From contig FTLJ01000039.1 of assembly GCA_900155495.1 (NCBI GenBank), forward strand, positions 28,529 through 92,528: a stretch of 64,000 bases of DNA, written 5' to 3'. The notes beneath the pieces are model-generated. The model saw only the letters and a list, made by a program, of their open reading frames with translations. It did no database searches and was not told where the DNA came from. Position 1 is the stretch's first letter; each line of letters opens with the position of its first letter. Made by a program: the position numbers and the translations under genes. The stretch comes from Porogramme epimiltina. Lineage: Eukaryota; Basidiomycota; Agaricomycetes; Polyporales; Polyporaceae. This document shows positions 41,791-64,000 of this stretch, in pieces.

Positions 41791-42189
41791 ACCTGCATAT
41801 GTCGGTCGTCCTCCTCCTCAGCATGATTCCTCGGTATCACGAATTCCCTTGGGCTCCCGGGTACTCTTGCTAGGAGTTGCGATATTTGGTCGCTCCCCAT
41901 CTGGATTGACAGCTGCACCACTGGAGGTGTTCCTTAAGCAGACGAGCGTGCAGCGGCGGTGCCTGCATACGGTCATGGTTCACGCTTTGCCAGGGCGCAT
42001 TCTTCCAGATATTACCGTTCTTGTGCCCATATCAAATGTCAGCCCGCAAAAGCAGATATCTCTGTGCGCCTTCAAGGCACCACCGCTTCAGTATCCGTGC
42101 GGCGTTGCGTACGAGCACCGCCCCACACCTCCGGATACCTTCCCGGGCTTCGTTGGTTAGAACGCGCAGCGGCCTCTCGTCGCGAGAAG

Positions 42190-42196
42190 TATAAAA
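42190..42196 (+). promoter_or_regulatory. TATA box of the gene at 42251
   Basis: TATAAAA lies 61 bases before the ATG at 42251. Confidence 0.55.
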
Positions 42197-42250
42197 CCCC
42201 ACTCATCTTAATTCACGATTATATTCAGCGCACTTGAACACACGCCCGGA

Positions 42251-43293: not shown

Positions 43294-44146
43294 GGTTGCG
43301 AACTCCAGGGGATGAGCACCGGTACCCGGGTATCGGTCTTCTAGTCTTCACAGGACATGCGTCCGTGAGACGGGGAGATGTTTGGTCGTTCGTACTCTAA
43401 TAAAAATCAATAATCTGGCACTACATGTCACCGAATATTTACCTGCGAAGTGTACCGTTCAGGGCATTAGATGGTTGGCTAACAGATTACTTCCCCTCAC
43501 TGCGGGATCGACTCGACAGGAATGCAGGGGGTGATGTCTGTAGTCAGACTAGTGGCGCCCATCGTCTGTCCCGGCGATTGCGATGCTTGGAGAGGTGTAC
43601 ACGTGCTCCGAGGTCGTGGGACGTCGCTTCAGCGGTCCTACCAGTAAGAATGGGAGGGGACAGATGTTAGCATATGCCGGAGGGGATGAGGGGAAAGATG
43701 CCGGAGGGGGGATGAGGAGACAGCTAAGTATCTTTCGCTTTGCGCCGGATATAAACATCCGGATACTAGGGTTCTGTCCCACATGGGGTCGACCCTGTGC
43801 GCTGATTGGGTGCGCGGCCTTTGCGTGACATCCAGATATCTGGCGGCGCCACCAACAGCGCCCTCTTCCCACTGGCTGACAGATGTGGGCCAAGGCCGTG
43901 TTAAGACCGCCGTAGGATGCAGCACTATGAACATCTTTGAGTCCACTGACCGGTGGCCTGTGGACCGAACCTGTCCAGAGGAAGCAGGCCCTCCACCACG
44001 TTTGCGGGACATCCGTGCCCGCCTTCACACAGCCGACGGGTATGAGAACACGGGGCATCGAGAAGGATATCTAAATTGAACGTCCCGGGAAAGGCACCTT
44101 TCAGATGGACCGTACGTCGCGCGTGTCGCGAATCAAACGCTGTTCC
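43294..44146. other. Spacer, no gene seen
   Basis: There are two overlapping frames on opposite strands (43549-44079) without domains. A near repeat of ATGCCGGAGGGG lies at about 43674 and 43699. Confidence 0.4.
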
Positions 44147-45624
44147 ATGTCCACGAAGTCCTACTTTGTTACCGACGTTCTATCCTGGCATATGAGATTG
44201 TTTATTTCTTGCAGAACCACCACCACTGAGCCCCGCCAGCTCACTCGGCGGCCGTTATATGATCCATTGGTGGTAACGTTTATAGATGTGGTAGACACGT
44301 TGCGGAGAAGGGTTCTCGGACTTGAGAGAACAAGCGGCGACGGGTAGAGCTCATATTGATTAATGTATATATCACTAGAATATGTTTGTGGTACCCCCTA
44401 TGGAGCAATATAAGTTCGTTTGAACTACCAGTGGAGAGAGCACCGCTGCCTCCAGAGTCCATAGTAGCCCAAGACGACTGACTGAGAGCGCGAGCACTCA
44501 CGGGGAAAACGATGCGTGGAGGGCCCCTGTGATATCATTAGTGGTCCTAACGACACTTTGGCAAACTTGCTTCCAGGTCTGTTAGTTAGGGTGTGATAGT
44601 CGCGTTTCACGGCGGGGTGGCTTCCCCAGGTAGACTATTTTGGCCGCAAGCCAGAATATTCTGTTCTCGTATTCGATAACAGAGGCGTCACCGGTAACAG
44701 CGACGCGCCGAGAGGGCCTTATACGTGCGTAAGCTAGGTTTCTACGTAGCATATAGTCTTACGGGTTGCCCGTCTAGAACAAGCGGTATGGCTCAAGACA
44801 TAGTCGCGCTGCTAGACTTTGTGGGCCCGACCGACAAGTTTCAAATACACGTGGTTAACATTTCGCTCGGTGATATGATCGCTCAGGCTCACACTTACAG
44901 TTATCCTCAGCAGTTCCACCAATATGCTCTCGCTGGTGTGACTTTCAGAGCTGGTGACCAAGAAACCAGAGCGCATTGCCCCCCTGACCCTTGTTGCCAC
45001 CAAGCCAGGCAGGCGGCGGCTCGTGGAACTTCCCTCAGTGAGCGTCATGCTCGTCATCTTGTCTCCCATCCGTGTAACAGTTTCTAGCGTGTCGGGACCA
45101 CGAACCTATTGAAGACAATGATGATAAAGGACCCTGAGCGGAAGGTACCCCTTCATGTGAGAGATGATCCATTAACGGGACTGGTTAGATTTGAAGAACC
45201 CATCCGATCCTCAAGGCCTAACCAGCTGTGAGATCGAGACCGAAGTAAGTGGCTCCTCAAACCTTGCAGGGGCATTCGTAACTTCGTCTCTGACACGCTG
45301 TACGCATATCATAGCAGGATCGCGGTAACGCGCTCCCAAAAGCTTCTTGGTGCAGTTTCCCAGATGGCGGCCGCTATGACACACTACCTCTCTCCCGAAC
45401 GGTTGCGCGAAATTTCCTCCACCATTCCAAAGGTTGTGATTATAACCGGCACGGTCGATCACCTGGTCGATCCCGCCAACGGCCACTACATGAAGAAATA
45501 CATGCCGGAAGCTGAGCTCGTGGTTCGAGAAGGCGCAGGCCACGGTTTGACGATGCAATGGAAGGATTGGGCGAACGGTCTTTTAGCGCGGACCTCTAAG
45601 GAGGGCGGGGAGAAAGCGAAATAA
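44147..45624 (+). pseudogene. Damaged alpha/beta hydrolase gene (with a possible fragment of a second one)
   Basis: The body from about 44634 matches soluble alpha/beta hydrolases: VDYFGRKPEYSVLVFDNRG, NSDAPRGPYT, intron, SGMAQDIVALLDFVG, VVNISLGDMIAQ, then in a shifted frame ELVTKKPERIAPLTLVATKPG, later TNLLKTMMIKDPERKVPL, and the C-terminal exon with IPKVVIITGTVDHLVDPANG and EGAGHGLTMQW, ending at 45624. The elbow is N-I-S-L-G instead of G-x-S-x-G. The junction after MIAQ has no GT donor, and no proper 5' exon was found. A fragment at 44147-44290 (STKSYFVTD..MRLFISCRT) resembles the N-terminus of a different hydrolase family. The Asp (TVDH) and His (GAGHG) positions remain. Probably a pseudogene. 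Confidence 0.55.
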
Positions 45625-46353
45625 TCATACGGTGTCCTGTATTAGAGCCTATAAATACCTGCGGTGTAGAGTAACGGTATGGTGGTCGAGGGTCCTGGGT
45701 TGTGTCACATGATAGAGCATAGCGTTCTGCTGAACGCCAGGGAGCCTGAAGCAGACTTAACACATGGGATATCACGGAGTAGAAGCAGCTTACCAGCGAT
45801 CCGCCAGCTCAATGTTCCCTCAGCAGAGTGGCCAACGTTTTCCTCGCTTCGCGTGGCAAGCCCCTAGGGGCTGTCTTCGCCTCGAGGGCCTCTATCCGGA
45901 TATTCGACAGGTACGCTTCGCCAGCTTCCTTCTTGCGCTTTTGTAAAATCTCCATGAGGGTAGGATTTAGGATACCCGAGCGCACAGGTTGAGGAATAGG
46001 CAGGAGAGCTGGATCGACCTGTGAGCACGGGACAACCCGGACAAGGCGGACGAGGGTGGGACGCATTGCGTGGTCTTGTAAGAACTGTGGGGAAGAGGGG
46101 GGAAGTCTAAGCCGAGGACGCAGGACGAGAGGGAAGGACGGCTCAGAGGTCGAAGGTCAAAGCAAAGCTATCTCGTGACCTCGACGCACGACACGTCTTG
46201 GGTGGAGCGTCAAAGCTTCCGCCAACCTTGACCCGACACACTTTGATCTCCGTCGTCCTCAGTCGTTCTTATACTATTTCCCTCCGGGAGCATCCTATAT
46301 TGGCACTGTACGCGTCATATACCAGGAGACTCTGCACCCTTGAAAACGCCTCC
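45625..46353. other. Spacer, no gene seen
   Basis: There are short frames only. A minus-strand frame at 45809-46066 ends with a Lys/Glu-rich helix-like segment (LMEILQKRKKEAGEAYLSN) but has no start context or neighbours that support it. Confidence 0.35.
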
Positions 46354-47153
46354 ATGTCCACAAGCTCGCGCAAAAGGAAGGATGATGAAGTTGTTGAGCC
46401 CCGCGGTCTAGATGAAGGCTGGTTCCCGCATGCTCGCTGATACTTTCCTGCTGCGTGTCGCCGCAATGTGGGGAGACAATGGGCTCTTGCTTATCTTACC
46501 TGAATACTCTGTCCCCATGACCCAGCTGTGCGGATCGGAGGGTACAGTGGCGGTAACAGGGAAACTTGATTATCTCCTTCACCTCTCGAAGACGTGGAAG
46601 GCGTATGAAGTTGGTGAGCGCTCTACATCTCATGCACGAGTGCAAATATTCACCCATCACAGAGACTCTCCTGAAGAACCCGCGTGATGTTGAGGAAGAA
46701 GGAACGAAGGGTTCTGCGATGGTGGAAGTGCTGTCCCGTCTTGATTATCGCTCTCTAGGCGAGGTAGTACCGCAGGCCATCCTGTAGGTTGCAGCGCTAG
46801 CGAAGAAACAGATGTGAGTAGCCCGTCGGTTCAATATTGGCGACTCACGGACACCGAAATGAAAGACCTAAAAATACCCTCATGAACGGCGCCGTTACGT
46901 ACGGGCTTAGCTGGATGTTCTTCTCGTTCACGCCCGGCCCTGACGGCGTTGGAGGCACCTTTGAATACTCCGCACAGGTGAATGCGGCGTCGCTCGACTC
47001 AAGAGCTGTGATTACGGGTATCCTAAAAGATATGGTACGTGTACTGGACGGATCGTGTGGTCCCTCGCATGCCATGACTTCTATCATGTGCAGATCGAAT
47101 GTGCATCAACAGCAGTCAGATTGCCTGCTTCACTCCCTACGCAAGGAGTTTGA
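46354..47153 (+). pseudogene. Nuclease-like Agaricomycete multigene-family member with an in-frame stop
   Basis: The ATG at 46354 opens MSTSSRKRKDDEV. The following pieces match a large mushroom family: ADTFLLRVAA, GTVAVTGKLDYLLHL, SAMVEVLSRLDYRSL with EVVPQAIL, then VAALAKKQ, intron, IPKNTLMNGAVTYGLSWMFF, and an end IECASTAVRLPASL. Between AIL and VAALAKKQ the codon is TAG (46785-46787), where a Gln (CAG) would fit, so the frame is broken by one base. The motif usually read V-E-A-K in this family is VEVLS here, so a candidate catalytic Lys is also missing. The idea of a PD-(D/E)XK fold is mine and untested. Confidence 0.5.
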
Positions 47154-47366
47154 CAAGAAGTTAAACTGACAGGTGGCATCCTTACAGCTCAATTTCGCCC
47201 TTATTATATAAGTGGCCTTTCGTACAAAGCTCACATCGGTAGCAGCGATCCGAACATCGCGTTTACACTACACACGGATAGGTCTGGGGTGAACGTGAGA
47301 TTAATCCGGTCCCTGATACAGTACATTGTCTACGTATTAATTATACACATATACATCATATTGAAA

Positions 47367-49095
47367 TCATGAAAAATTCGGCTCAGATGCCCGAGACACA
47401 GCAGATTGGAGATTAATCCGCGGCTCCTGGCTAATAAAGGTCAGATCATCCGACACGCCCTCATTCTCATCCACTTCGGTGACATAGTAGTCTTCGGACC
47501 CGATGCGGGCACCAATAGAACCCACAACTCTCGCGAATGAGAGCGAGTTCCAGTGATCGTTCTGGGTCGGAAGCGAACCGGACATGCCTCCCCAGGCTGT
47601 ATCTTGGCTCACTGACTGCAAGTGAAGGAGGAAGCGACCGACGAGCACTGATGTCGCGCTGGAAGTTGTTGAGCAATAACTATAGAAGAATGTACGGAGG
47701 TGCACTCACGGTTTCGTGAATAAAGTCACGAAGCTAGCTGAATTGAACGGCTGGACAATCTACAAGGTTGACCATTGAGCGCCGAAACGGAAAGAGGGTT
47801 GATGATGTGGTGCACTCACTGAGAGAAGGGATAAACTGAGGTGCAGAGCGTTGAGGACTAGGAGAATACTTGAAGGTGTTTGAGATGGCCTAGCTCACGG
47901 TAAATAATTTGGAGAGAAGACATACGTAAAGTAGATAGTGCCTGAAAACAAAAATGTAATCTCAGTAAGACGCGGACGACGTACGTGTACTGCCGCTCAC
48001 CGTCTCTAAGGAGAACCTCCGTGAAGGTCTTCATTCGAAGCGTCGCTCTAAATTTATTTTGCCGATGCAGTGTGTACCACGTGATGACGATGAGGATAGC
48101 GTCTGCGATCATCAGAGACACCCTCGACGCAATGGTCACTGAGATGAGATCACCGGAGAAAATAAGTTTTCGCCATGCAACAAGGCAGAACCACGCACAT
48201 CTGAGGTGACTACATCAGCCGGGAGCGAAATTATGTGGAAGTGCGGACCAACCGATGAGAGACATCTGCCGAAATGGATGACGACCCAATGCATCCCAGC
48301 ACTGACACATTCACCCCATGAGTAGTAGTAACTTGGCCCTATGCGATGACGTGGAATTAGCTACCTGCCCTTAGCAGCGACAACATGATACAAAACACCT
48401 ACGACGTTGACTCCAAAGGGGACTAATGACAATATGAACGTAAGCAGAGATAGAGGTTTACTCTGGCTCAACGCAAGGGCGCGGAGTGCTGTGAAAGCTA
48501 GTTCGGGGGTATCAGTCTCATGCGCGGTACGTGAGATGGTTGGGTATACATACCTGCCCATACAGCGTATTGACTCGAGTCGAGGACCTGAGCAGCTTGG
48601 GCGTACTTGTAACAGCTAAAAGGTTTATGGAATCAGTTCCTACAGCGGAAGAAGGGTACGGGACCCGGATGGCCTACAAACCTCTGTGTGAGTGTTAGCA
48701 TCGCATATCTTCTTAAGAAGTAACGACCTACCGGATCGGAGAGAGAAAAGAACGTGGGAAGCATCTCGTACCAAAACACCGTTAAGCTGAGATATCGGTT
48801 TAAAAGGTACAGGCCTACTGAGGCCGTAAATTTGCGGCCCCAGAACAGCCGAATCTCGTCGCTCCAGGTGATAATCCACTCATACGTCAAGAGTACTATA
48901 GCAAGAAGGCGTCAATTCCGTGATTGGAAGGGAAAACATTACATAGATCAGCTCACCAGTCGCCGCAAGGAGGCAGAAGTTCCCGGTCATACTTCAGATT
49001 CGCCATGTCAGAGCCAAGAGTAAGGGAGCCAAAGGGGCTACTCACAAACCGCTAAACTCTTCAGCAAAAGCAGAAGCGTCGGCACCAGAGGCCAT
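47367..49095 (-). CDS. DUF6533 multi-helix membrane protein, third copy
   Basis: The ATG at 49095 opens MASGADASAFAEEFS. A donor GTTTGT to an AG before TACTCTTGACG joins it in frame to the DUF6533 core VLLTYEWIITWSDEIRLFW, then GRKFTASVGLYLLNRYLSL. Further exons read CYKYAQAAQVLDSSQYAVW, FTALRALALSQSK with LLTFILSLVPFGVNVV, MHWVVIHFGRCLSS, ISVTIASRVSLMIADAILIV with TFTEVLLRDG, and the last exon ATSVLVGRFLLHLQ with an acidic tail, ending at 47367. It is the most completely readable of the three copies and appears intact. The role is unknown; the helices imply a membrane location. Confidence 0.78.
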
Positions 49096-50540
49096 TGTTG
49101 AAGTTGAAGACGAAAGGGGAGGAGGGTTCGGAGAGATACCCGATTGAAGAAGGCCAGGAACTGGGATTATAACAGTGTACAGCCCTAGCACCAACAACCG
49201 ATATTGCCTCCTTGATGAACGATGTTCCTGGAGAAATACTAGGTGAATCAAATGAGTCGTAACAGGGGCTATCATTTCTTACGCGTCTGCACGCGACACT
49301 ATAGAGACGAGCTTCAGGATCAGCCGGAGCCATGTGTTTGAGCCATCACTTGAGATACTTTGGTTCAGTAGGCACTTGCGATCGGACGTCCGCAATATCG
49401 AGCAGATATCATCGCGTCCTACGAGATCTATAAAGGGTGTGAAATAGTGTTCTCACACTCCTTCGAAGGATACTTAGCTGGTGGGGCATAGTCTCTGCAC
49501 GTGCTAATTGTCGAGGTCTTGAGGTGGAAGGGATGTAAACCCCGAACATCGGTGTATCATCGCAACTTGATTACACACCGCTGGTGCCACGTTGCGCGGA
49601 TCAGAATATCATGCGGGATCGCCGGCCAAACACTTGCCAAGCGGTGCACCACCTTGCCCCTTTGCTTGGCCTTTCGCTTCAGGACTTGAAAGTTGAAGAG
49701 GCCGAAGTGTTGAGGCTTGCGAGTTGATACTAGCTAGGTTTCCTCTCAAAGTTAGCGTCCAGCTGCCTGTCTCCGTAAACGTGGTCCTAGGAAATATGAT
49801 TGCATGATGATGTGGTCACCACAGGGCTATTTACTATTTGAATTCTCACCAAGTTCAAGTCGTCATATGTACTCGCCCACGTCATCGGTTTGTGTGAACG
49901 GCGACGTGGAGAGGCACGTATATTCAATTTCCACGTGTTACAGGCTATCCCAATTCCAATTTTCAACGTGGCATTGGCAACTGTTATCTGACGACTCTGA
50001 AACGTATGGACTATACGTAGAAGAAAACGTCTCTGGGAAGTCTGACAATATTGTCAATGTTAGTGCGAACTTCAACATAAAGTTCGACGTACCATGCAAC
50101 ACGAAGCCTTCCCGCTCGCGGTAATCCCCCAAAGGGAGAAAGGAGTGTGAAATATCTACAATTTCCACGACGCAGATGACGACATTGCGGGGTAACCAGG
50201 TACAGTAGGCACTTTGTGCGACGGACTTCCGGCAGTAGCAGCATAGCAGCACAGCGATGCACAATACAGATACAGTACAGTAGCTTCAGCACGACGAGAT
50301 GACAGGGAATACCAATGATGACGAATAAACAAAAGAGATGAGATGTGCGAGAGTGGATGAGACCCGAGTCCGTGAGATTAGATAGACGAAAATTACGTGC
50401 GAGGGATGAACGAAGGCGACGTGTAGAGCGGATGGAGGCGTGTGAATATATATACGTGGGGAGGGACCGGAGGGGACAACTGAGTGAAGAGGGCAGGGTG
50501 ACAGGGAGGGGAGGAAGATGGTGCTAATGTCACGGGCACT
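49096..50540. other. AT-richer spacer
   Basis: There is no gene I can support. A 106-codon plus-strand frame at 49804-50124 shows no domain. The last part before 50541 should hold the 3' untranslated region of IRE1. Confidence 0.4.
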
Positions 50541-53500
50541 TCAATCCCTCAACTCATAGTACGTGCGGAACATGGACTCCGTCCGGAGGATCGAATCTCC
50601 TATGACCTCATGCACATGAAGGAACAGGTTGGGGAACCTCCGCGTGAAGTACGCAAGGAAGCCCTCGGGCATTGACCCGAGCAGCCGCTTGACGTTGTCT
50701 GGTAGGTCCTGGTAATGGTGTTTCTGCATATCCGCGATGAGTCGTCGGTCGCAACATCACGGGACGGAGGTCATGAACACACCTTGTTCCTCAGTGCACG
50801 CAGTAGATCCTGCACGCTCCTCCCGTCGTACTTGCGGAACTTGCCCAGATTGTCGATGAAGAGCTTGTCAAGGCGCGCATGCCAGTCATGACCGACAACG
50901 TCCACCGCGCCCATCTCGAGTGCGAGCAAGTGAGCGTCCTTCGGGTCGCGACACATGATCTCAAACCTATCGGACGCATCCTGCAGGAACGCGAGGCGCT
51001 TGCCCGGGTCCCAGAAGTACGGATGCAGCAGACACGTACTTGTATCTGGCCTGTGTCCACGCGAGACATCAGTACTATCCCATCAGCAGCAGGTCAAGAG
51101 CCACGTACCTGTCACGCGCCTCCGGACTGAGCATCTTCGTGATCAGGTCCACACCCTCCGCGCCTTCCTCCCCGAATCGTTCCAGCCCATCCAAGCACTT
51201 TGATCCCTTGAGAATGTTGAACTCGCGCTCGAACCGGTCCCCGAAGGGGTGGGACCCGTTCGTGAGCACATAATAGTAAAGACATCCGAGCGCGAAGATG
51301 TCGACCGACTTTGTCAACCGCGTCGGCGTCCCCGCACTGCTCCCTCCTGAGGCACCGGAAACAGTCGCGACGCTGCCGCGGCTCGACTGCGACTCATCGC
51401 CCGCACCCGCGTCGTCGAGCTTCACCTCGCCCCTAAGGATCTCAGGCGCGCGCCAGCCGACAGTGCCCGCGGCCATTGCTCCGTGCGCAGTCGGCAAGAA
51501 GCTGGTTTGGTCGAGCTCGAGGCGCTTGCACAGGCCAAAGTCTGAGATGAGCATGCGGTGGCCGGCGTTGTCACCGCCCGCACCGCGCTTTGCGTGGGAG
51601 ACGAGGATATTTTGCGGCTTGATATCGCGGTGCACGATCTTGAGCGCGTGTAGGTGCCGCAGGCCCGCGGTGATCTGGCGTAGGGCGCGCTTTGGCTCGA
51701 AGGCAACGACGAGCTCGCGGTGAGCATCAGGGCGCTCGATGACGTCCGCGAGCGACGCGGGGCAGAGCTCGAGCGCAATGTAAAGGAAGTTGGAATGCGC
51801 TTCCTGGTAGTAGTAGCGAATGACGTTCGGGTGATCGTCCGATTCTTGGAGGACATTGACTTCGCGCGAGGCGAGGGTGACGAAGTCGGCGAGCATGCGC
51901 TTCACGGCGACCGCGCGGCCTTGAAGCGAGCCTTTGAAAACGACCGTCCCGTGGGAACCCATCCCTACAACAGGACGGTGTCAGTACTTGACATGAGTGA
52001 ATGTTAGTATATACGTACCTAACACAGTGTCCGACACAACCAAAGTCGGCGCGGCTTGCACGGGAGGCGTAGAAGGTGCGAGAATAATCGACGGCACAGC
52101 AGCGGGAGCGTCTTTCGGAGGCTCCGCGCTCCCGTTCGAATTTGAGGTGGCAGTCAGTTCCGGCTGATCCATGCCTTCGTCCGCAGGGATGACGATCGCA
52201 ATTGCTCCCTTTTTCTTCTTCCCGCGCTTCCTCCGAATACCTTTGCGCTTGCCTGGGGTGTCTGGAGAGTCGCCCTCCTTCTCCGAATCCTCGCCTTCTG
52301 CTGCAGAGTTGGCGCCATCTACTGGCTCGGGGGTGTCCGGTACAAAGAGGAGTTGCTTCGCTTGTGGAAGTTCGACCGGCGTCGTGTCGGGAGTTTCTGG
52401 CATCGGTTCGGCGACGCCACCGGAAATCTTCTCGCCCAGAGGGGTCGGCTCGTCCGCAACGGGTTGTGTAGAAGGTGTTCCGACTTCCGGGAGTGTAGAA
52501 GAGAGCGATGGCGGGGAGGGAGGAGGGGAGGACAGGAATTTCCGGATCGACATCCATAGTAGGAGAGCGATGGCACATAAGGCGAACGCCGAGAACGCCT
52601 GCGCAGACCCGCTCATCGCCATCAGACTAGAGGCAGGTCGAACCTCTAAGCGTGATGGGTCAGAACCGTTCGTCCAGCCCGGCGGGGGTCGCATGGAGCC
52701 GTTCATGACATCCGAGGAAGGGGGTACAAGAGGTTCTTCGCGAATACCAGTAGCGGGTTCGTTGTAGTTGAAGGGCGGAGAGGACGGAGGAGGCGAGACG
52801 GAGGGCGCACCATCCAATAATCTGCTCAACCTCGACTGGCTGTCTGACCCCAGCTTCTTCACTCCCGTGAGGCACCTGACGTCTATGTAACCGTTCTCGC
52901 AACGCTCGCGCAGTTTGCGAGCTTGAGCCTTGCGCTTTACGCCGTCCACGTCCTTAGGCAAGTCCCGATCGTAGTCGTAAGTGGGGTCGAACACGGAGTC
53001 GGGAGGGGGGTCTATGGAGCGCAGATGGCGGTTGTTACCTTCATTGGAGTCGCCGAAGACGACGAGGGGAAAGCGGTCGGGGGTCATAGCGTACAAGGAG
53101 CCGCTCTCTTCAACGAGCCCAACGTAGGCAGCATCTAGGTTGGGTAAACGCTGGTGTTGGGCGGCGGAAGTGAGATCAGGGAGGATATCTTGGAGGCGAG
53201 GCTGGGGTTGGACAAGGATGAATGGTTGCTCGCGCTTGGGGGACTTGAGAACGTCGAATGTGGCGACACTGGACGAACATGAATACCCAGAGAGCAGGAA
53301 GACGTCAAAGCGTGCTCACATGGGGTTGGAGAACTGCTGGTACCACATCAGATGTGCGTTGGGAGGCGAATCGGGGGATTCAGTAGTTGCAGCCCTGAAA
53401 GAGATGATCTTGCCAGTAGGGAGAGACTGGATATAGGTATCGTCCGCGGTGTGTTGGTAGAGGGTCTGGAATGCATGGTCTTGGTTGTTGGGCCCATATG

Positions 53501-54315
53501 TAGAGAAAGACAGCCGTTGAATATGAGGACGACCGCCCGAGCCCTTAGGGGGATTGGTGCGAATAGCCAAATGGTAATCTGGAGGGGAGGTGGGAATGGG
53601 TAGGCTACAGTATAGCCCGAATTGACATACCTGTACGCCCGATATAAACTTCTCTCGGTGGGGATGTGTCTTTCGGAGGTTTTGTGCCGTCTAACTCGTC
53701 GAGGTCGAGGTCTTGCGAAGTCTCGGAGACGTCCTCGAAGGGCTGCCACGGACACTTTGGATCCATGGTACCCTTTATCCTACCCGTCTCTAGCTCCACA
53801 AGGAGCAAAGAGCTCTCCTTGCTCCCCACGAAGAGTCTTCCGTCCTCGTCTCCTGCGAAGCTGTACGGTGACATGTCCACAAGCTGGGGCATGGAGAATG
53901 GAAGACGGTGGAGGGGGCTATCTGGAGAAGACATGACGTAGATGTCGCCGGTCTGGGGTTCAATCACGTATATTTCTCTACGCGCGTCGTCGTCGTCGGT
54001 GAGGTCCGGGTCGATGTCGGGGTGTTCTGTGCGAACCAGGGGGCCAAAGGCAGCGGGCGCAGGTCCAGAGGAAGCCATGGACCAGATGGCGGCACCTGAG
54101 GTCCTATTGAGCGCATGGAGCTTGCCGTCTACCGAGGCGACAAGGACGATGTCGAGAAGTTCGAGGCCATCATGTGTGTTGGGGAGGCGACTGTCGGGTA
54201 CGGCGTTGACTTGGGTTGAGAGTTCCTTGCCGACGTTGGCCCGGAGGGAAAGGACTTCCGCCAGACATAGACCTGCAGTGAGGAGGAAGGCAGAGAGAAC
54301 GAAGATTGGATTCAT
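50541..54315 (-). CDS. IRE1: IRE1, unfolded-protein-response sensor kinase/endoribonuclease (about 1,180 aa)
   Basis: The ATG at 54315 opens a signal peptide (MNPIFVLSAFLLTAGLCLAE). The luminal domain follows with DIVLVASVDGKLHALN, GAAIWSMAS, IYVIEPQTGDIYVM, DGRLFVGSKESSLLLVEL and, in later exons, LVQPQPRLQDILPDL and SGSLYAMTPDRFPLVVFG. One helix (AFSAFALCAIALLLWMSI) leads to a basic linker. After an intron the kinase shows GSHGTVVFKG, AVAVKRML, HRDIKPQNIL, DFG (ISDFGLCKRL), WRAPEIL and VDIFALGCLYYYVL, with a Ser-rich insert before it. The KEN RNase shows FLQDASDRFEI, KHHYQDLP, YFTRRFPNLFLHVHE and ends at 50541. About six exons. It sits in the ER membrane and splices the HAC1-type mRNA. Confidence 0.93.
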
Positions 54316-54517
54316 TCCATGCGAGGAGTGAAGAGCCAAGGAGTCGACTTGGAGCGGAGGATGCGGAGGGGAGAAGATGTCAAGTCAAGAGCGCAGTTCG
54401 GTATGTGTTTAACACTTGAACGAGTATGGGACACGACTGGCCCATCACAGCATCCGTGGCGCCGGGAGGCCTGAGGAGAATAGCGACATATACGTTTTTG
54501 CGCTCAAAGACTTCTAT

Positions 54518-54625
54518 GGCCCAATGGTCTAGTAGTATGATACGGCCTTCGGGCGTGAGCCCTCCTGAAAACAGGACTTGCTTACGTAAGCATATTTGGC
54601 TGTGGCCCCGGGTTCAGGTCACGCC
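54518..54625 (+). tRNA. Proline tRNA (anticodon CGG) with intron, truncated in the T-arm
   Basis: The 5' two thirds read as tRNA-Pro: acceptor strand GGCCCAA, D-arm GGTCTAGTAGTATGAT, anticodon stem CGGCC, loop TTCGGG with anticodon CGG, an intron of about 44 bases, then the matching 3' stem GGCTG. The B-box begins GGTTCA, but the T-stem does not close and no 3' acceptor strand (TTGGGCC) follows. The gene is therefore cut at about 54616. It lies about 200 bases upstream of IRE1 and points away from it. Confidence 0.5.
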
Positions 54626-54728
54626 CTTGTCTTTTGCTAAGACAATGCCCCTTTTTACGGCATCCATCCCTTACAATCTTCTCTGCAGCGCGACACTCGC
54701 TTGACTTGCTGGCACGCACACGCGCAGT

Positions 54729-54911
54729 TCGAAGGGCTGCCACGGACACTTTGGATCCATTGTACCCTTGATCCTGCCCGTCTCTAGCTCCACAAGAAGC
54801 AACGAGCTCTCCTTGCTCCCCACGAAGAGTCTCCCGTCCTCGTCTCCTGCCAAGCCGTATGGGCACATGTCCACGAGCTGAGGCATGGAGAAGGGAAGGC
54901 GATGGCGGGGA
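54729..54911 (-). pseudogene. IRE1: Truncated duplicate of an IRE1 luminal-domain segment
   Basis: The minus strand repeats the IRE1 segment at about 53735-53918 with only scattered base differences: MPQLVDMCPYGLAGDEDGR, LFVGSKESSLLLVELETGR, IKGTMDPKCPWQPFE. The copy has neither the flanking IRE1 sequence nor splice partners. It is in the same orientation as IRE1 and about 1 kb upstream of the source segment. Confidence 0.9.
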
Positions 54912-55186
54912 CTACTGCAGAAATTCTATCAGATGAGGACCCTTATTACGTCCCTTTCTGCTGCTCATGCAAATCCCTCCCAGAAGCCCCCAGTCCCCCT
55001 TATATTCCGAGTACGTAGCGGTGAGTTCCTTCCCCGTAAATTCCCCATGAACAACTCCAGTGGAATATACAGCTTTCGGCGCGCCCCTCCGCCCAGCGCG
55101 GTGAGTGCCTTTATCTCTTCCTACTAGTGACCTCGTCTCATCTCCCCCAGTGCGTTCTCATCCACGGTGTACTCGCCGCAGAGCTC

Positions 55187-55659
55187 ATGAGGCCCGAGGG
55201 GGGGCCACCGCCCCCCCACGCCGGGAGGGATGCCCCCTCCCAGCCCACCCTCACACAAATAACCCCGCCCGATCACTCCGGGCGGGACCACGCCGCCCCG
55301 ATGCCGGGCGACGTTCCCGCAGTAGCATGCGGCCCCCCTTCCCTACTCCCTCTCCCCACAACGTTCGACACCGACGAACTCCCCGACCTGGTCGACGTAG
55401 ACCCGGTCGGGGAGTTCGAATACGACTCCAGTTACGGCGCGGTTGTCACTCAGGTGCGCTACCAATGGTTCCTGCCCTTTTGCTCTGCTCACTCACGCTC
55501 GACCCCACTGTCTAGAAGGGCATCAGCGAAGAGGTCCAGGACAGCGACCCTGTCACTGGCCCCCGCGCCCCCACGGAATACGGCGGCACCAATGTTTCCG
55601 CTGACGTTGGCGCCGCCCAAAAAAAAGGGCCGCTCAATGGAGGCCCCGCGACGTCCTGA
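55187..55659 (+). CDS. Hypothetical Pro/Asp-rich protein, 5' end uncertain
   Basis: Exons 55187-55453 and 55516-55659 are joined by a 62-base intron (GTGCGC..CTAG) and keep frame (136 codons plus stop). The protein is Pro-rich at first (GGPPPPHAGRD), then acidic (FDTDELPDLVDVDPVGEFEYD), and ends in a Lys/Gly-rich tail. More exons upstream are likely: about 54920-55010 reads DEDPYYVPFCCSCKSLPEAP with a CCxC group. Function is not recognised. It lies among broken gene pieces. Confidence 0.4.
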
Positions 55660-55809
55660 GTTGGGAGACTCTCCAGGGATTTTTTGACACAATGTATTGT
55701 AAAGACGTGCGGCCCAAAAATTGATACGTTTCAATTTGCATGCTGTCTTGTGCAGGTGGCGGAGTCGCCCCCTCTGATTTGTTCGGTGTTCCTATCCAAA
55801 TATTGACAG

Positions 55810-55862
55810 GTTTGGTGCGCGTCACCACCTGCGAACCGACCTCGAAGAAAGCGCAAGAAATG
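55810..55862 (+). pseudogene. NmrA-like gene fragment 1
   Basis: Reads VRVTTCEPTSKKAQEM after an acceptor-like TTGACAG, matching RVTTRDPSSKNAQEL of fragment 2. Only this exon piece is recognisable. Confidence 0.5.
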
Positions 55863-55990
55863 TCGTGTGGCAACGAGCAGACCCATGTGATGTCGTGGCA
55901 GATAGGTCGTTGCGGATTACATTTTGATTACACGGCCTACACAAGATATCCCACATCTAACTGCCTAGTGCTCTCCACACCTCTCGCAAC

Positions 55991-56404
55991 GTGTCGTCGA
56001 ACAACAGTACCGTAGCGAACGTTGTCATCCTCGGAGGGACGGGCGAGCTTGGTGAGTCTGAGCTGGTGTACGCGCTTGGATTTTACCATGTAATAACCCT
56101 ATCAAACAGGCGCACACGTTTCTTCCATCTTCGTGTCACCACCCGAGACCCTTCTTCGAAGAACGCACAGGAGCTCGCCAATAAGGGTGCGGAGATTTTT
56201 GCGCTGAGCATCCCCTGGGACATCGATCTCGAAGGAGCCAACGTGGTAGTCAACGTCCTCCCAGTAGCGTGTGCCTTGATCCGATCCTGCAGCACCTTGG
56301 TCAAATCCGGCATGAAGGTTTACTTTGTGAGCGAGTTCGCGGGGTTGGTGCATCGCCACGGCTTGTTGTCTGCTCTTCTCCTGGTTGCATCCATTCCCCG
56401 ATAA
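55991..56404 (+). pseudogene. NmrA-like (NAD(P)-binding) gene fragment 2
   Basis: The N-terminal third of an NmrA/isoflavone-reductase-like protein. It reads SSNNSTVANVVILGGTGELG (Rossmann glycine loop), a GTGAGT..CAG intron, then RVTTRDPSSKNAQELANKG, DLEGANVVVNVLP and VKSGMKVYFVSEFAG. The codon where family members begin is GTG, not ATG. The intron join is off frame by one base, and nothing after VSEFAG continues the family. A dead fragment is the simplest reading. Confidence 0.65.
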
Positions 56405-56652
56405 GAACAGCGCGCTCCCGAGCAAGATCCCGGCCCTCCGTCCTCACGCTATCCCATGTGGTCTGCACACCGGCTCTGCTCGCACACTGCTTGTCTCGTC
56501 TCTGTCCCCACGCGATCCGCACGCCCGACCCCCAACATTTGGGCGTCGGGCGTCCGTCTGGTACCGTTTAGGTTTTTTGTACTCTCACAAAGTGACCTGT
56601 AATTATTCACTAGAGGCACCATCACTCTCGCCAGTCATGTGCTAGCCACAAT

Positions 56653-56910
56653 TCACTCATGAACCCAAACCCCACACAATTTACTGGAGAGATGGAGCTG
56701 ATGCGCGGCCACTGCATCTGCCATCGGGGGCACGTTCTTGAGTTTCGCGTGCACGCGTGAGTGGAGGGCCTTGATCACGCCCTCGTCTCTGAAGTAGTCG
56801 ATGCGCTTTCCGTTCAGGATGCCGACGCGGATGTGCATCCCAGCCCCGCTGCTACGTAGGAAGTTGACGACATTCCGGATTTCTTGCGAGGCCATGGACT
56901 GCTGCTCCAT
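56653..56910 (-). pseudogene. SEC62: SEC62 N-terminal fragment
   Basis: From the ATG at 56910 the frame reads MEQQSMASQEIRNVVNFLRSS, then RVGILNGKRIDYFRD, VIKALHSRVHAKLKNVPP, the characteristic start of the ER translocation protein Sec62. After about 60 residues the likeness fades (MADAVAAHQLHLSS), and neither the central part nor the membrane helices follow on the minus strand. It is a partial copy; the functional gene must be elsewhere. Confidence 0.75.
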
Positions 56911-57370
56911 AACGAATTACTAAAGGGAGGTATAACGTATGGAGAAGACCAGTCCACGTCACCGTCCTTCGCTGGTAAGGTCCCCAGACGGCCTGTGGTT
57001 GGCTTCAAGGTTTGTCACTAGAAATTATGCTGCGGTAAGCCCGCAGCATTCCTGAGTCCTAGGCGTCCCCAGAGAGCTCCTCGCCCTCCCTGGGGTCCAC
57101 CGTCCCTATACATCAACGCAAGACACATCATATGCCAGCGGGCTTTTCGGCGCTATTCCCGTCCTGTGGCAACTGGCATGAGGAAGGGCTTGGCCGCGCC
57201 ACTGCCGCGCTGGCGCCCGGGGCAACCAGCTGCGCTCTCTCGACTAGCAACTTGCCTCCACGTCAACACCCCGCGATTTTCCCTGCAGTAATTCAGGACC
57301 CATCTTTTGCTGTCGCACACCTGAAGCTACTCGTCTCTCTGCTCGAAGCTCTCCATCCAAGACCCTTGAG
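56911..57370. other. Spacer before the recombinase gene
   Basis: An 82-codon plus-strand frame at 57132-57380 has no domain. The stretch holds the upstream region of the recombinase gene. Confidence 0.35.
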
Positions 57371-57445
57371 GCGAAGGTGAGGGTTTATATCAGCGTCCGA
57401 GTGGACAGCGTCCACTCGGACGCCGATATAAACCCTCGTCTTCGC
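57371..57445. repeat. Hairpin-forming inverted repeat with opposed TATA boxes
   Basis: Arms 57381-57405 and 57411-57435 are 25 bases with one mismatch around a 5-base loop (CAGCG). They extend outward to 35 bases with three mismatches. Each arm carries GATATAAACCC, so a TATA box points both ways. The plus-strand one (57427-57432) lies 43 bases before the recombinase ATG. It could be a promoter, a protein-binding site, or both. Confidence 0.9.
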
Positions 57446-57474
57446 CCGGCCGTCTCTCAAGCCCCCTTCGTCCG

Positions 57475-60400
57475 ATGCAGCCAAACCTCAGGAGCTCACG
57501 AGACCCCCTTCCTCCAGGCCTCGGGTTCGGCCGGCGTACCGACCCAACAACCCCCTCTATAGGAACCCTCCGTGAGCTCGCGAACCCTCGGTCTTTATCA
57601 TTTGAAACAGCGGCGTCCTCGAACGTCGCACAGCAGCCAGAGGCCGCCCCGCCCCTATCATTGGGAGGTGGGGTCGCCGGTCAGGTAAGTATATCTCTTT
57701 TGATTAATCTTGTAGTGTTGGCTAACAGTTAGTAAACATAGACCCCGCAGGCCCCGTCCGATGGGAACCCTTTCCCATGGACTGCGGCGGGGCCGTCGCG
57801 TGACTACACTATGGCCTCTCGCCTCGTCACCCTTCCCACTGTCGATGGCTCACGCGCGAGGACGACATTCAGGAAGGGCATCGAGGCACTTGCCGCTACC
57901 TCTGGCATCACACCCAATGAAGTCATCCGCAAGATTCACGAATCCGCCTCTATCGAAAAAAACATGACCAACCCATTCACCCAAAAGCATCTCGCCGACT
58001 CTCTCTCTCGTTGGAGCGGTTTTTGTCTGGAGCTTGGCATCCCCGAAGAGCGCCATTGGACTGACAAGGTCGTCTTTGAGAATTCAGCGACGTACCTGAC
58101 GATTCGGGTGCGTTTTTTTATTTTATTTTATTAATCGCATCGTCTTACTGATGCAATGTACTATTATACAATTATACAATGTATTATTATATCTCTGCAG
58201 CTCGAGATCACAAAGGGTCGCTGGAGTCCGCGAGTCAAGGCCCGGACGATCGTTGGCTGGCTGACCTACCATGTGGCTAATGTTGTCAGCTATTGCCACG
58301 ACGCTACCACCGGACAGCGCAATGGCGTCTCTGTGCTTTCGACGGGAAGGTTGTGGCACCACCTTCACAGTCACGTTCTCTGGCGTGAGTCTTTTCTCTC
58401 TTCTGAGCAGTTCGTGTCTTGCTTACTTTGTATGTTAGTTATTTCACAGTATAAACTCGATAAATTTCGCCAACCGGTGAATTTTTGGGGCAAGCGTGAG
58501 GCGCGGCTCATCATTGAAGAAGCTCTGGCCAACACTACGAAACAACGGCGCTTGCACGCCATACAAACCATCGTGCTCGTCTGTCTCGCTCTCATTACGG
58601 CACTCCGACCAGGGTCTTTCATGGCTTCTTCCAAGCTCTACGCCAAAGAAGGCCGGACAATTTATCTTCGCGATCTCACTATCACTCGCACCGGCGTTGG
58701 CCTCTTCGTCGTCAAATTGTGTATTCGGAATTTCAAGGTGTGTTGACACCGGAGCATGTCATGATTCTCTTATTGACCAGAAACAATCTATAGGGCAGCC
58801 ACCAGGCTCTCGTCGGTGAACAGCTGGAGTTCGTTCTGACGCCTGTTACCAAGGCGCACAACATTGTCTTTGAGCCGAGCCTGTGGATCGTCTTATTTCT
58901 CTTTGAACGTGGTGCCTTTGGTCAGAGCAAGACATTGGTCGACATCATGGAGTCCGATGCAACACACCTTCTGATCGAAGAGTCGTTTCGCGACCAACCT
59001 CTGTACGTTGCACGCACACGTTCATATGTATCGCTCTGCCACTGGCCTATGGCATCCTCGCTAAAACATCTGCATGCGCTATGATATCTTTCTCTCCTTG
59101 TGTCCGTTCTTTTCGTGTGCTAGTGACTCATTGTCGGCCCAGCTTTCCAGCGTTCGGGTCAGGAGACCGCTTGCTGGTTGATCAACCGGCACTGATCGCC
59201 CAGGGCTACGACTCTATCAAGATGTACGCTGCCAACGCAGGGATCCACAGCACGGGCGCCATCTACAACTGGCGGCGAGGTGGGGGTGATGATGTGTGTC
59301 GACGACTGTATCTCTGGGTGCACGATATTGATGCTTTTTTCTTCAAATAGTATGGGATCAAGCTGAGCATTCAATGCATCAGCAAGATGTCGGCGTTACA
59401 AATGACCCTTATGACAACTTATCCTCACTATTTCTCCCTATCCCTGACTATTCCGTGCTCAAAAGCAGGTAATGGTGCGCAATAGTGCGAAATAGTCAGG
59501 ATTAGGCCTCAAAAGTGGCACTTGTAACACGGACGTTTTGCTGATGTGGGCCGCTCTTATCCTCAAACATCGTGACGCCACCCAAGCCAAGATGTTCAAT
59601 TCATTTTATTCTCAGCACCTTGCCAACCTCCCCCTCGTCGCTATTCGTCTGGGTGAGCTGGATGACACGGCGGATCCACTCACAAAGGTATGCGTGAGGC
59701 CAGCTCCGTTGCGTGTTTGCATTCTTAATATTTTTTATAAATTTTTGTAGGCCAAGCTGAACATGCAGGAACTCACAGATACGAGTGCCGTGATCGCCCT
59801 CGCTGGGCGCGCTATCCTTGCATCCCCCTTGAGGGGGATGACTATTGATTCTCAATCAGCCCAGGGCGATCAACTCGCGCTGTTTGCTCACAATGAGAGC
59901 ACACGGTATGGCACACGCACCGTGGGCCGCCCAAAAAAAGACCCGGAAGTTAAGCGCAAGATTGAGGTATGTGTCCGACTTTGGCAGTGACGACCTGCAT
60001 ATATTTTGTTGCGACGTGATTGCTGATGCGGTATACATTTTATTGCAGGTGGCCGTGGCACACATTTGGCCTCTGATTCATGCAGAGTATAAACGTTTTC
60101 TAACTGGGATCGACCCGCGAACACGCCCATTGACACATTTTCCCGACAAACTCGAAACCGGGGCCAGGCAGCCCCGGTTTGACAAGGGTCTCGAAAAGTG
60201 CGACATTATAGATGACGTACTCGTCGAGGACGTGAGTGCGGTAGCTTGTTATCTGAAATTGTGCATTAATTTTCTGTCACTACAGTCACTAGCCAAGCTC
60301 AGGGGGCTCTTCAAGGACAAGGAGAACGCCTCGCGTATCGTGGGCCATAGATTTACACGCGAGAAGACCAAGGCTAACCACGCTGTGCTCGAGAAGCTCC

Positions 60401-62310
60401 GGATTGAAACCCAGACGGTGGACAGTGCACAGACCATCCGAAGCACCCTCGACAAACCGTCTGAAGGTTCGTAGAAGGTCTCCCTGCCGTAGATGGAGAC
60501 AGTGTGTGACTCACCGTCGAAAAGTGTTGACGCGGAGCCTTGAGTGGCTCCGTGGCAGGCAGGAAGCACTCGCATCGTCCTCGACTTCCCCACAGTGCAC
60601 ACAGGGCCAGCTGGAATCGCAAACTTCGGCATCTAGTTCTCGTAAAAAGCCGGCCGAGCCGGTCCAAAGTGAGTGATCTATGAATAATACATGCGAGTGA
60701 ACTACTGACCTTTTTTTTTTGTTTGATGGCTAGAGCCGCCACGGGAGCGCTCGTTTGAGGACTGGGATCACTATCTCAACGGTCGCTTGGCTGACCTGAG
60801 TGAGTGCGTGGGGTTGTTTTCGGAGCCTGCAGGTGAGGATGAGGACGAAGAAGACCGTGGATTCCGAGAGCTAGCGCACCACATGCCTGTGCCCGTGGGG
60901 GGACCGGTGACCGCGTTTCTCGCCGCTGATGGTTTTGAACCCACTCAACAAGAACAACTGCCCGCAGCCGACGCGCCCCCCGACGGCAGCACGGCACTGC
61001 ACACCGGCGCGACGACAACTAGCACGGCCAAGAAACCACCGCAGCCAAAAAAGAGCAAGCCAAAGGTCAGGCGGAGTTCCCCGCCACCCAAAGACCCACA
61101 GGAGCTCGTTGGGGGCACGCTGGATCTTCTCGACGACAGAGGCGAACAGGATTTCCTCGGGCTGGGTGACGATCTCTATTCGCTGAGACTAGCTCTTGTG
61201 ACCATGGCGCAAGCGCCCCTCCATCGTGATCGCCAGCTGAAGAGCAAGTATCTCGTGAGTGCAGTATCATTTTTTTTAATAATTTAAATGATCTCTAATA
61301 CATCACTAGCGCGACAATAAATGGACGTGCACCCAGTGCACGCACACCGACAAAACCTGGGCGAAATTAAAGTCTCATCTTGGGTGAGTCGCGCGCGCGG
61401 TCTTTGCTTGCGGCCGTACCTACTAATGTCGTCTTTAAGCATGGTGCACTCGGATTGGGCCATGCTCAAAAATAGTCTTGGGAAAGACACCAGCATGCCA
61501 AAGAAGCGACGCTGGGTCTGTCACTTTTGCAACGTCTACGAAATGTGAGTGGTTTTTTTTTTTGCATTGTATTTTTATTAACCTCTTGTTATAGGTCCTT
61601 TGAGAGAGAGTCAGAACTGATCGCGCATTTCCTGTCCATGAACTGCACGCACGGCAAGCAGACGCGCCAACACCTCTCAGAGTACATCTCTATCTGTGTC
61701 GAAGAAAATATGCCGGACATGGAGCGCCAGGCGCGTCGTCTGCTCGCCGAGGCCCTTTTGCAGGACCAGTCTTCAGGGCGGTCCCAGGGACGGCCGCGCG
61801 CGCAGACGGTACCGTCGGGGTCGACATCCAGCGCGGCCCGGCGCCGGTGCGCAAGCGGACCCCAGCGCTCCACGTCTCCTGTCGTCATCTACGACGCCGA
61901 CGCCGACAGTGACGAGTACCGCGACAGCGACGATGACTTCCACGCCACTTCCGGACGCCATTCCATGGCGTCCGAAAGTGGCGAGGAAGAAGACGAGGAA
62001 GAGGAAGAAGTTGAAGACGTCGATGTCAATGCGCTCATCCAGTATCTGCTTCCTGTCAAGATTGCCCAGCGCGCGCGAGAGGTGCGTTTTTTTTGATAGG
62101 ACGCTGGCGAACGTCTGTCTGATAGCCTTTTAGCTCGGACTGAATGTGACGGACGACGATATCAGCGCGTTGAGCGACTTTATGTCTGACATTCAGGGTA
62201 TGATCAGCCAGCTCGCGACGGGGGCGCAGCAGTGCCCGTCCGCACGGGCGGTCACGGACGACGAGTGGCGGGAGGCGGGTGTGGACTTGTTGTACGCAGG
62301 CGACGATTGA
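57475..62310 (+). CDS. DUF3435/Crypton-like tyrosine recombinase with C-terminal zinc finger, MITE-interrupted
   Basis: A many-exon gene. The ATG at 57475 opens MQPNLRSSRDPLPP. After an intron come TFRKGIEALAATSG and LADSLSRWSGFCLELG (SAM-like core-binding part). The catalytic part shows LITALRPGSF (first Arg), YLRDLTITRTGVGLFVVKL, FKGSHQALVGEQLEFVLTP, NIVFEPSLWIVLFLFERGAF, TGAIYNWRRGGG (Y-x-x-R box), then, after a 134-base insertion, ILKHRDATQAKMFNSFYSQ, whose Tyr is the likely nucleophile. Downstream exons hold GRPKKDPEVKRK (basic), an acidic/Pro linker, and a finger C-T-Q-C..H..H (WTCTQCTHTDKTWAKL) with a second Cys pair (CHFCNVYEM), ending YAGDD. DUF3435 proteins are tyrosine recombinases related to Cryptons and Starship captains. 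Splicing of the middle is uncertain because of the insertion. Confidence 0.65.
59395..59528. mobile_element. MITE-like palindromic insertion in the recombinase gene
   Basis: The ends are inverted repeats beginning GTTACAA(A/G)TG, and the likeness continues about 40 bases inward (both arms hold ATCC(T/A)..CTATTTC-type sequence). The 134 bases have no coding frame in phase with the host gene. It lies between the Y-x-x-R exon and the catalytic-Tyr exon. A target duplication is unclear (perhaps CGG on both sides). Confidence 0.65.
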
Positions 62311-62591
62311 CGGACGATTTTGTTATCTTGACGACTTTATTATCTTGTACGCGTATGCAATGCCAGTGAATGTGATTGAACCATGTGCGCGTATACACGA
62401 GTGGCGGTCTACAGGATTCGTTGCGCGAGACTGAAGCGAAAGATGAACATTCGGCGAGCTCTGATCCAGGCCTCGAGTCATTGCCTCGATTCTCCAAAGG
62501 ACGAGCTCTTCTCCTGGGTGTGGAGGGCAGCCGAGTGCACGGTGTCCATTCGGGTGTGTCCGTGGTAGAGCAAGATGTAGCGAGGAGGCTG

Positions 62592-63037
62592 CTACCCCTC
62601 GATGACCATCGCTGCGTCATCGTGCGCGACAGTGTTGGCGTCGGCGCGCGCCCCCTCGCGCGCGGCCTTGCGCGCTGCCTTTTGTGCGTCCGCTTCGGCC
62701 TTGAGTCTCTGGGCGGCCGCGCGATGGGCTTGAGCTTCGGCGAGGAGCCTGCGCTCCTCGGCGGCCGCGCGCGCGGCCTCTTTTGCGATGGTGGCTTGCT
62801 GGAGGTCGGCCTCGCGGATGCGCACGGCGAGGGCCTCTAGACGGCTGCGGGTGGCCATGGCGAACAGGCGCTCGACTTGGTCGATGGTCCTGGGGGCTAG
62901 GATGGGCGCATATAGCGAGCGGTTGGGAGGAGGGGGACTTACATGGCCTTGACGTAGGCGTCCGCCATCTTGCACATGTCCGCGTCGGTGACCTTTTGCG
63001 CGGCGCGTTTTTTTGGGGGCTGGCGGGCGTGCGGCAT
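62592..63037 (-). CDS. Small Ala/Arg/Glu-rich coiled-coil protein converging on the recombinase gene
   Basis: Exon 1 starts at the ATG at 63037 (MPHARQPPKKRAAQKVTDAD) and is spliced at GTAAGT (62942) in frame to TIDQVERLFAMATRSRLEAL. The rest is one long helix (AVRIREADLQQATIAKEAAR, then AEERRLLAEAQAHRAAAQRL), very probably a coiled coil, ending DDAAMVIEG. It ends about 280 bases from the 3' end of the recombinase gene. The basic start may contact DNA. I do not recognise a family. It could be a partner of the recombinase (inference from position only). Confidence 0.55.
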
Positions 63038-63189
63038 CGGGGGCGAGTCTGCGAGGGGGCGGGGCTGCGCGGGGGCGTGAGGGCGGGCGGAGCGGGCGGG
63101 GGCGCACACGGACCTGGTAGTTCAAGAAAGAGGAGCGAGCGCGGACAGGCGGGCGTGGAGCGAGAGATTTTATGGGGCCGTCACCTCGT

Positions 63190-63209
63190 CTTCACAATAT
63201 ATTGTGAAG
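63190..63209. promoter_or_regulatory. 20-base perfect palindrome upstream of the coiled-coil gene
   Basis: CTTCACAATATATTGTGAAG is its own reverse complement. Weaker symmetry continues outward (CTCG..CGAG). It lies 153 bases before the ATG at 63037 on the minus strand. Such a site suits binding by a dimeric protein. Confidence 0.85.
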
Positions 63210-63240
63210 GGGCGAGATGACGCACGCAAGGCCCGCACGT

Positions 63241-63925
63241 GCGCAGGCGTAGTGCTGCTGGCCTATCCCTCGCGCGCGTGAGATCGGAAGGCGTGTTCCA
63301 CGGAGACGACAGTGAGGAGCGTGTGAGGTCACTGCAAGAGTGCCCCGAGATGGTCAGACCTGTGGTGACTGGGTCAGACGCGGGGGCAGACGAGGCAGGC
63401 TTTTGCGGTGCCTTGCGATCGAGTGCCGAGGTGAGACGAGTCGTGGACCTGCTCGTGTGGACTGGCGGCGTGTGGACTGGCAGGGGGCACGTGAGCGAAG
63501 GGGCGGGAGCGGGAGCGGTGCGCGGGCTCGAACGCAGGACGTACGTGGAAAATGGGCTGAGCTATGGCTCGAACCCAGGGGTCGGGAGGACGCAATCTCG
63601 CATCTTGATGCGGGCGTTGCGCGATTGCCCTAGGAAATAGACATGGGTGTGAGTCGAACGCGCGGCGACGGGCTGTGTCTTTGCCAAAAAAAAAAGTTGA
63701 TTGGGGGGCGGGCGGCAGTAAATACAGTAGGGGGGCACGCGACAAAGACAGCTGGGGAGGGCGAGAGGGGCGAAGGGGAGGGCAGGAGAGGGAGGGAAAG
63801 ACGAGAAAGATGAAGGGCGGAGAAAGACAATATGGGGGGCGCGACAGACAGGTGACGGGGTGCGCTGCGGTAGGGCGGGCTGCGGTAGGGGCGAGACAGG
63901 GGGCGTGCTGGAGTAGGGCGGGGAT
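63241..63925. other. GC-rich tail of the window with tRNA-like motifs
   Basis: No gene is supported. On the minus strand three B-box-like T-arm motifs (GTTCGACTC near 63650, GGTTCGAGCC near 63570, GTTCGAGCC near 63530) occur within 140 bases, but none folds into a full tRNA. Purine-rich simple sequence fills 63700-63830. Confidence 0.35.
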
Positions 63926-63982: not shown

Positions 63983-64000
63983 GGGCGGGGGCGGGGCGGG

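Follow-up and report, generated by a model that had tools for sequence, protein, structure and literature searches.

In humans, class 2 templated insertions occur without poly(A) and without target duplications (PMC5110952; here and for the other papers cited, the statement rests on part of the text). For introns of basidiomycete amylase genes, the donor could not be identified, according to the part of PMC3584928 used here. Among mobile elements, most fungal Cryptons carry terminal direct repeats (PMC3212892), and Starships have already been reported in a basidiomycete, Tremella fuciformis (PMC13066641). Here we analysed positions 54518-63417 (8.9 kb) of a 64,000-nucleotide stretch of Porogramme epimiltina DNA, hereafter the window (contig C26:28529-92528), where short pieces of unrelated host sequences lie around and inside a large recombinase-like gene. 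A seryl-tRNA synthetase exon of this fungus matches Ganoderma leucocontextum (91% over 86% of the query) and G. sinense (97% over 79%), which places it among the polypores or near them. The explanation we prefer, to which we give about an even chance of being correct, is that breaks in a fragile locus were repeatedly patched by templated, and partly RNA-templated, copying.

Eight short pieces were found in this region, and all eight have a second copy elsewhere in the genome (DNA searches of the 41.9-Mb assembly of 926 contigs, to which contig names such as C10 and C12 refer). Their sources are tRNA-Pro, IRE1, NmrA, SEC62, chitin synthase and tubulin cofactor C genes, an unnamed gene on C236, and an intergenic stretch on C767. 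The original prediction had described a store of host fragments directly upstream of a recombinase. The source copies bear out that the pieces are truncated, functionally unrelated host fragments, but they flank the gene on either side and also lie in two of its introns, and four of them come in addition to those first named.

The cut proline tRNA of that prediction is indeed present at 54518-54616 on the forward strand. It consists of the 5′ side, the D arm, and an anticodon arm with a differing intron, and it is cut in the T loop, without a 3′ end. It is 85% identical to C12 over 52 columns, and its first 24 bases are identical to three tRNA-Pro(CGG) genes, which ARAGORN rates as intact and which are the only donors for which we use that word. 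ARAGORN called no tRNA gene at 54518-54616 itself, and the missing 3′ half was not found within the window. The IRE1 piece was also recovered, as an exon fragment at 54729-54922 (reverse strand), 90% identical over 195 columns to window 53735-53929 in the resident IRE1, whose orientation it shares. From the putative start codon of that gene (54315), the fragment is about 410 bp upstream. The source is named IRE1 because Pfam finds a kinase domain and, in the luminal part, a PQQ-like match. Two NmrA pieces had been proposed, and one of them stands, at 55857-56379 (forward strand), 77% identical to C10:36110-36682, with a Pfam NmrA match below the cut-off (E 3.8e-4). The second is weak: 41 nt at 55818-55858 are 76% identical to 56132-56172, and 32 nt match the C10 gene at a BLAST E of 0.014. 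The predicted start of SEC62 proved to be a piece of its 5′ end (leader, exon 2, and part of exon 3) at 56685-56955 on the reverse strand, which matches its source on C192 in three parts (96%, 81%, and 100%). From exon 3 on, that source matches Pfam Sec62 with an E of 8.1e-42.

The four further pieces lie in or beyond the recombinase-like gene. An 89-bp piece at 59008-59096 is 97% identical to an intergenic part of C767, between what look by eye like malate synthase and cytochrome c peroxidase genes, and a piece at 62440-62590 (forward strand) is 85% identical to a 620-codon open frame on C236, in the scanned part of which no Pfam family was found. These two pieces were searched in both directions, and both matches are reciprocal. 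A 48-bp antisense exon piece at 60465-60512 (reverse strand) is 94% identical to a putative chitin synthase gene on C193, a name taken from reading the open reading frames rather than from a family match; the source frame ends in a DEK_C domain (Pfam). Finally, an exon piece at 63278-63417 (reverse strand) matches the tubulin cofactor C gene on C498 at 93% and 100%, and the open reading frame of this source matches Pfam TBCC (E 5.8e-6). The copy is about 63 bp internally shorter than its source; a spliced intron was considered for this gap and rejected, because the reading frame of the source continues across it.

The SEC62 source has one intron in the leader (GTGAGC...CCTAG) and another after exon 2 (GTGCGT...CGCAG), and the copy lacks both, exactly. 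Because two GT-AG introns are missing with such precision, the SEC62 piece, judged by its sequence, came from spliced RNA. In the NmrA copy, a GTGAGT...ACAG intron is still in place. The set thus includes at least one RNA-derived piece and at least one that was copied from DNA or from unspliced RNA. Identity to the sources ranges from 77 to 100% across the pieces, and this inequality suggests separate events. The proposal that the recombinase had stored the fragments finds no support here, given the pieces in the introns and beyond the 3′ end, the unequal identities, and the copy of spliced SEC62 RNA, for which a DNA recombinase offers no explanation.

The pieces are clustered. Control queries of 69.7 kb in total (window 1-17000, 17001-34000, and 34000-50900, with 9501 and 9313 bases around two source loci) were searched for single-source pieces of at least 85% identity and at most 500 bp, and they yielded no qualifying piece except two reciprocal matches to this locus. 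The controls leave out window 50901-54517 and include two non-random source loci, and in each of the three long window queries one candidate was unscored and the query's own place was absent from the results, such that sensitivity may be lower there. All six pieces of at least 85% (IRE1, SEC62, C767, chitin synthase, C236, and tubulin cofactor C) fall within the 8.9 kb, which has a probability of 2e-6 under a uniform distribution, calculated post hoc. The other control matches were longer or belonged to gene families (C528, C546, C705 at 78-83%, C223, C293, C413, C10, C577, C113, and the contig itself), or were short and recurred at several places (window 976-1063, window 38470-38551, and the end of C767). 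The nearest counter-example is C705, with three collinear pieces at 24780-26623 just below the identity limit.

Some of these control matches can be described further. The C705 match consists of pieces of one gene, perhaps a further gene fragment. The sequence at 976-1063 is repeated at five other places in the genome (C403, C498, C58, C546, and C174; 79-85%). Positions from about 38550 to 46390 are collinear with C528:94653-106277 (67-89%), as a duplicated or second-haplotype gene cluster, and those at about 14580-16460 and 19490-21300 are duplicated genes of the same contig, 67-73% identical.

The same region is rich in palindromes. When arms of 15 or more, 88% pairing, and loops no longer than 6 were required, four short-loop palindromes were found in the window, all of them within 54518-63417, whereas 12 other loci of the genome, which overlap in part and total 86.4 kb (about 85 kb of distinct sequence), contain one. 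Four of the five in about 149 kb thus fall in the 8.9 kb (binomial 6e-5, post hoc). H1 (55375-55418; DNA fold z -6.0) lies within a tentative coding stretch, H2 spans 56518-56556 (z -4.0), H3 (57370-57446) has 37-nt arms, a 3-nt loop, and a fold of -39.9 kcal/mol (z -12.2), and H4 (61937-61989; z -10.1) lies in exon 15 of the recombinase-like gene. Each of them folds better than all of its 200 shuffles. The sequence GGCGTCCG is contained in H2 and H3 and twice in H4, and not in H1; any 8-mer was shared by three of four in 3 of 5000 random mirrored sets. It is not enriched in the window (five occurrences vs 3.7 expected), and four of these five lie in palindromes. In Rfam, only microRNA matches under their gathering scores were obtained, overlapping H3 and H4. 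Upstream of the gene, the order is IRE1, H1, NmrA, H2, SEC62, H3, gene, and the edges of the fragments do not coincide with the hairpins.

The recombinase-like gene was modelled with 16 exons at 57475-62310 (forward strand), of which exons 1-6 and 8-16 read openly. It had been labelled a DUF3435/Crypton-like recombinase, and a large recombinase-like gene does adjoin the fragments, but the label is weak. The best Pfam match, DUF3435 (PF11917; E 0.05, profile 15-155 of 418), reaches 13.0 bits, below the gathering cut-off of 25.8 that defines membership, and a separate Pfam scan of exons 7 (in part) to 9 gave no DUF3435 match. Towards the C end, stretches resembling zinc fingers stay below threshold (E 0.1-0.45). 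RPGS, YNWRR, and FYS, picked by eye, are candidate tyrosine recombinase residues under what we take to be the motif R, [HKY]xxR, Y. An AlphaFold model of exons 3-4, whose query included intron 3, was unusable (pLDDT 37.8). For the protein, we found no relative in the PDB below E 0.85, none in IMG/VR, and none convincing in PHROG (one unknown family, E 0.13). Two word-based searches of a protein database that includes fungi also gave no relative, one with 7988 candidates scored up to E 0.001 and a looser one with 1298 candidates up to E 1; the database queries left out exon 7. In the assembly, DNA and protein searches (E 0.001) gave no second copy of the gene, which is single copy.

Three copies of sequences found elsewhere in the genome lie within this gene. 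Exon 7 contains a miniature inverted-repeat transposable element (MITE) of 170 bp at 59377-59546, with ends CATCAGCA/TGCTGATG, long inverted repeats, and in-frame stops. It is matched on 18 other contigs and is the only repeated component of the locus. A related recombinase, suspected at the MITE copy on C590 from similar flanks, failed by translation and tblastn. Intron 5 (59003-59142) measures 140 bases but would measure 51 without the C767 piece, and the remaining introns measure 50-93; this suggests that the copying went from C767 to this locus. The chitin synthase piece occupies 46 of the 58 bases of a proposed intron 10 (60467-60524). A GT-AG reading of this intron restores the frame, as chance often allows, and its 3′ site, GAAAAG, is weak. 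Should intron 10 remain unspliced, the frame would also be broken by the chitin synthase piece. The gene is probably inactive now, although its other exons are open, because of the MITE stops in exon 7 and this possible frame break.

Patching fits these observations better than cargo capture because the pieces are scattered, their identities are unequal, at least one is spliced, and palindromes are present. A fragile stretch would have broken and been patched many times, its broken ends being filled by short copies from elsewhere, either of spliced RNA or its complementary DNA (cDNA), as for SEC62, or of DNA or unspliced RNA, as for NmrA. The palindromes may be a cause, as hairpins that break, or a by-product, of ends that folded back and were then extended; hairpin-primed synthesis in end joining yields templated insertions (PMC7407515). 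The recombinase-like gene would be a resident of the locus that was itself patched, and its enzyme might have made the breaks. The C767 piece would have lengthened intron 5, and the chitin synthase patch would have landed within exon sequence and may today be spliced out as intron 10. At the seven junction pairs examined (the tRNA was left out), no poly(A) was seen by eye in 45 flanking bases.

Several observations weigh against repeated patching. No clear microhomology beyond a few bases was found at the seven junction pairs, and flanking repeats are not cleanly absent: 7 of 9 bases agree for chitin synthase, 7 of 10 for C767, and 6 of 9 for tubulin cofactor C (4 of 7 for SEC62, none for IRE1, C236, and NmrA). 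The chitin synthase repeat is the closest and was equalled by 179 of 20000 random pairs; with seven tests made, it is suggestive only. The SEC62 copy differs from its source at 5 of 123 positions in exon 2 and at 21 of 103 in exon 3 (Fisher 1e-4), a contrast that misfits one insertion of one age; its exon 2 and leader are nearly unchanged and its exon 3 is changed by about 20%, as if it had arisen in two steps. Of the differences in the IRE1 fragment, 15 of 18 fall at codon position 3 (185 aligned bases, p 0.004 vs one half), and such mostly synonymous differences are unexpected for a neutral patch. The C236 piece leans likewise (10 of 14, p 0.09). Descriptions of polymerase-theta joining come from animals and plants, and templated insertions are called rare in yeast, according to the part of PMC9779921 used here. 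Moreover, this is a single locus in one genome.

The IRE1 pattern is not that of a neutral copy, and foreign origin is among its possible explanations. The stretch would then have arrived from a different species or from a diverged haplotype, where the fragments were made from that species' own genes. The lack of any relative of the recombinase-like protein in the two database searches agrees with such an arrival, as do the differences in IRE1 and C236 taken together (25 of 32 at codon position 3). However, chance arrival leaves unexplained why the IRE1 piece sits about 410 bp upstream of the start of the resident IRE1, and codon position 3 is not clearly over-represented among the differences in SEC62 (10 of 26), tubulin cofactor C (3 of 7), or chitin synthase (2 of 3). 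We consider foreign origin unlikely.

It is also improbable that a mobile element driven by the recombinase took up host fragments as cargo. The fragments do adjoin a large recombinase-like gene that weakly resembles DUF3435, the hairpins could act as recombination sites, and the gene lies between the two arms (55616-55637 and 62996-63017) of a 22-nt inverted pair (86%). Nevertheless, this pair is one of 52 and does not stand out from others that are impossible as ends. In a survey of repeats of at least 14 nt, no convincing ends bracketing the whole region were found among the matches listed (20 direct families and the best 25 of the 52 inverted pairs). Base 64000 of the window is the end of the contig, and the far end of any element may fall beyond it. 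Further genomic copies of the unit with other fragments, as envisaged in the original prediction, were searched for in the assembly; no second copy of the whole unit was found, and no place has more than one piece. Fragments within the gene's own introns and a spliced SEC62 piece also speak against cargo.

The spliced SEC62 piece would suit a reverse transcriptase of a long interspersed nuclear element or a long terminal repeat element that switched templates and inserted chimeric cDNA. We regard this as quite unlikely, as the SEC62 piece comes from the 5′ end and has no poly(A), the NmrA piece retains its intron, and no retroelement was noticed beside the pieces, without a search aimed at retroelements. 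A Helitron or Pack-type DNA transposon would account for numerous short fragments of unrelated genes and for hairpins, but it is very improbable: the unit occurs once rather than in multiple copies, no helicase or transposase was matched by Pfam in the stretches scanned, and a spliced fragment misfits DNA capture. In Pleurotus, host gene fragments were found in none of the intact Helitrons, according to the part of PMC4289320 used here. There is hardly any chance that the locus is an integron-like fragment collector in a fungus, in which the recombinase-like enzyme would join fragments, some of them of RNA origin, at hairpins that have a core in common, an idea that arises because hairpins stand between the upstream fragments.

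Two other coding stretches were noted, and their coordinates, like those of the 16-exon gene, are hand-made models. A tentative orphan coding stretch at 54902-55659 (forward strand, a rough model) has its ATG inside the IRE1-derived end; it has no genome match elsewhere at E 0.001 and no Pfam family. A tentative short one at 62591-63037 (reverse strand, two exons) is an open frame only; it faces the recombinase-like gene and looks coiled-coil-like by eye. Inspection by eye suggested tRNA remnants at 63.5-63.7 kb, which were dropped, having no Rfam match and ARAGORN calls solely at relaxed thresholds. Close to the contig end, 63926-63983 is a 19-bp tandem repeat of 3.1 copies; telomere repeats were not found within the window.

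The comparison with bacterial integrons concerns how they work only and draws on integron anatomy that is partly general background. Like an integron (PMC6431247), the locus combines a recombinase-like gene with hairpins between fragments; unlike in an integron, the fragment edges lie off the hairpins, the fragments are not whole genes, and recombination is hypothetical. If such a reading were true, this would be a eukaryotic recombination system that collects fragments. Cryptons were considered for the tyrosine-recombinase-like protein, but GCR1_C gave no match in the parts of the gene scanned, and no direct repeats of 4-6 bp at both termini were placed here. Starships share with this locus a recombinase-like gene with weak DUF3435 similarity, but gene scraps rather than whole cargo genes are present here, and no ends and no second copy were found. 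Among the literature matches listed, with most subscription papers outside the search, none described host exon fragments clustered at a gene for a tyrosine recombinase.

Likenesses are also found in break repair. In Daphnia, new introns have been linked to the repair of breaks (PMC4202315), and here too there is an exon insert with a short flanking direct repeat that is possibly spliced out; the difference is that the donor is known here, a putative chitin synthase exon, and that splicing is predicted. The origin of new introns is a long-standing question, and, if patching is true, the locus may hold a new intron with a known donor exon, and its palindromes would point to the breaks. A further likeness is to the human class 2 templated sequence insertions (TSIP), which are short extra copies of distant loci, without poly(A) and with RNA-derived members (PMC5110952). 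As in that class, the donor is still present and the insert is an extra copy for all eight pieces, with the direction for C767 taken from the length of intron 5. Unlike the human insertions, eight are found in one 8.9-kb fungal locus, together with palindromes and some partial flanking repeats; if patching is true, a single fungal locus would densely record natural templated insertion, partly from RNA templates.

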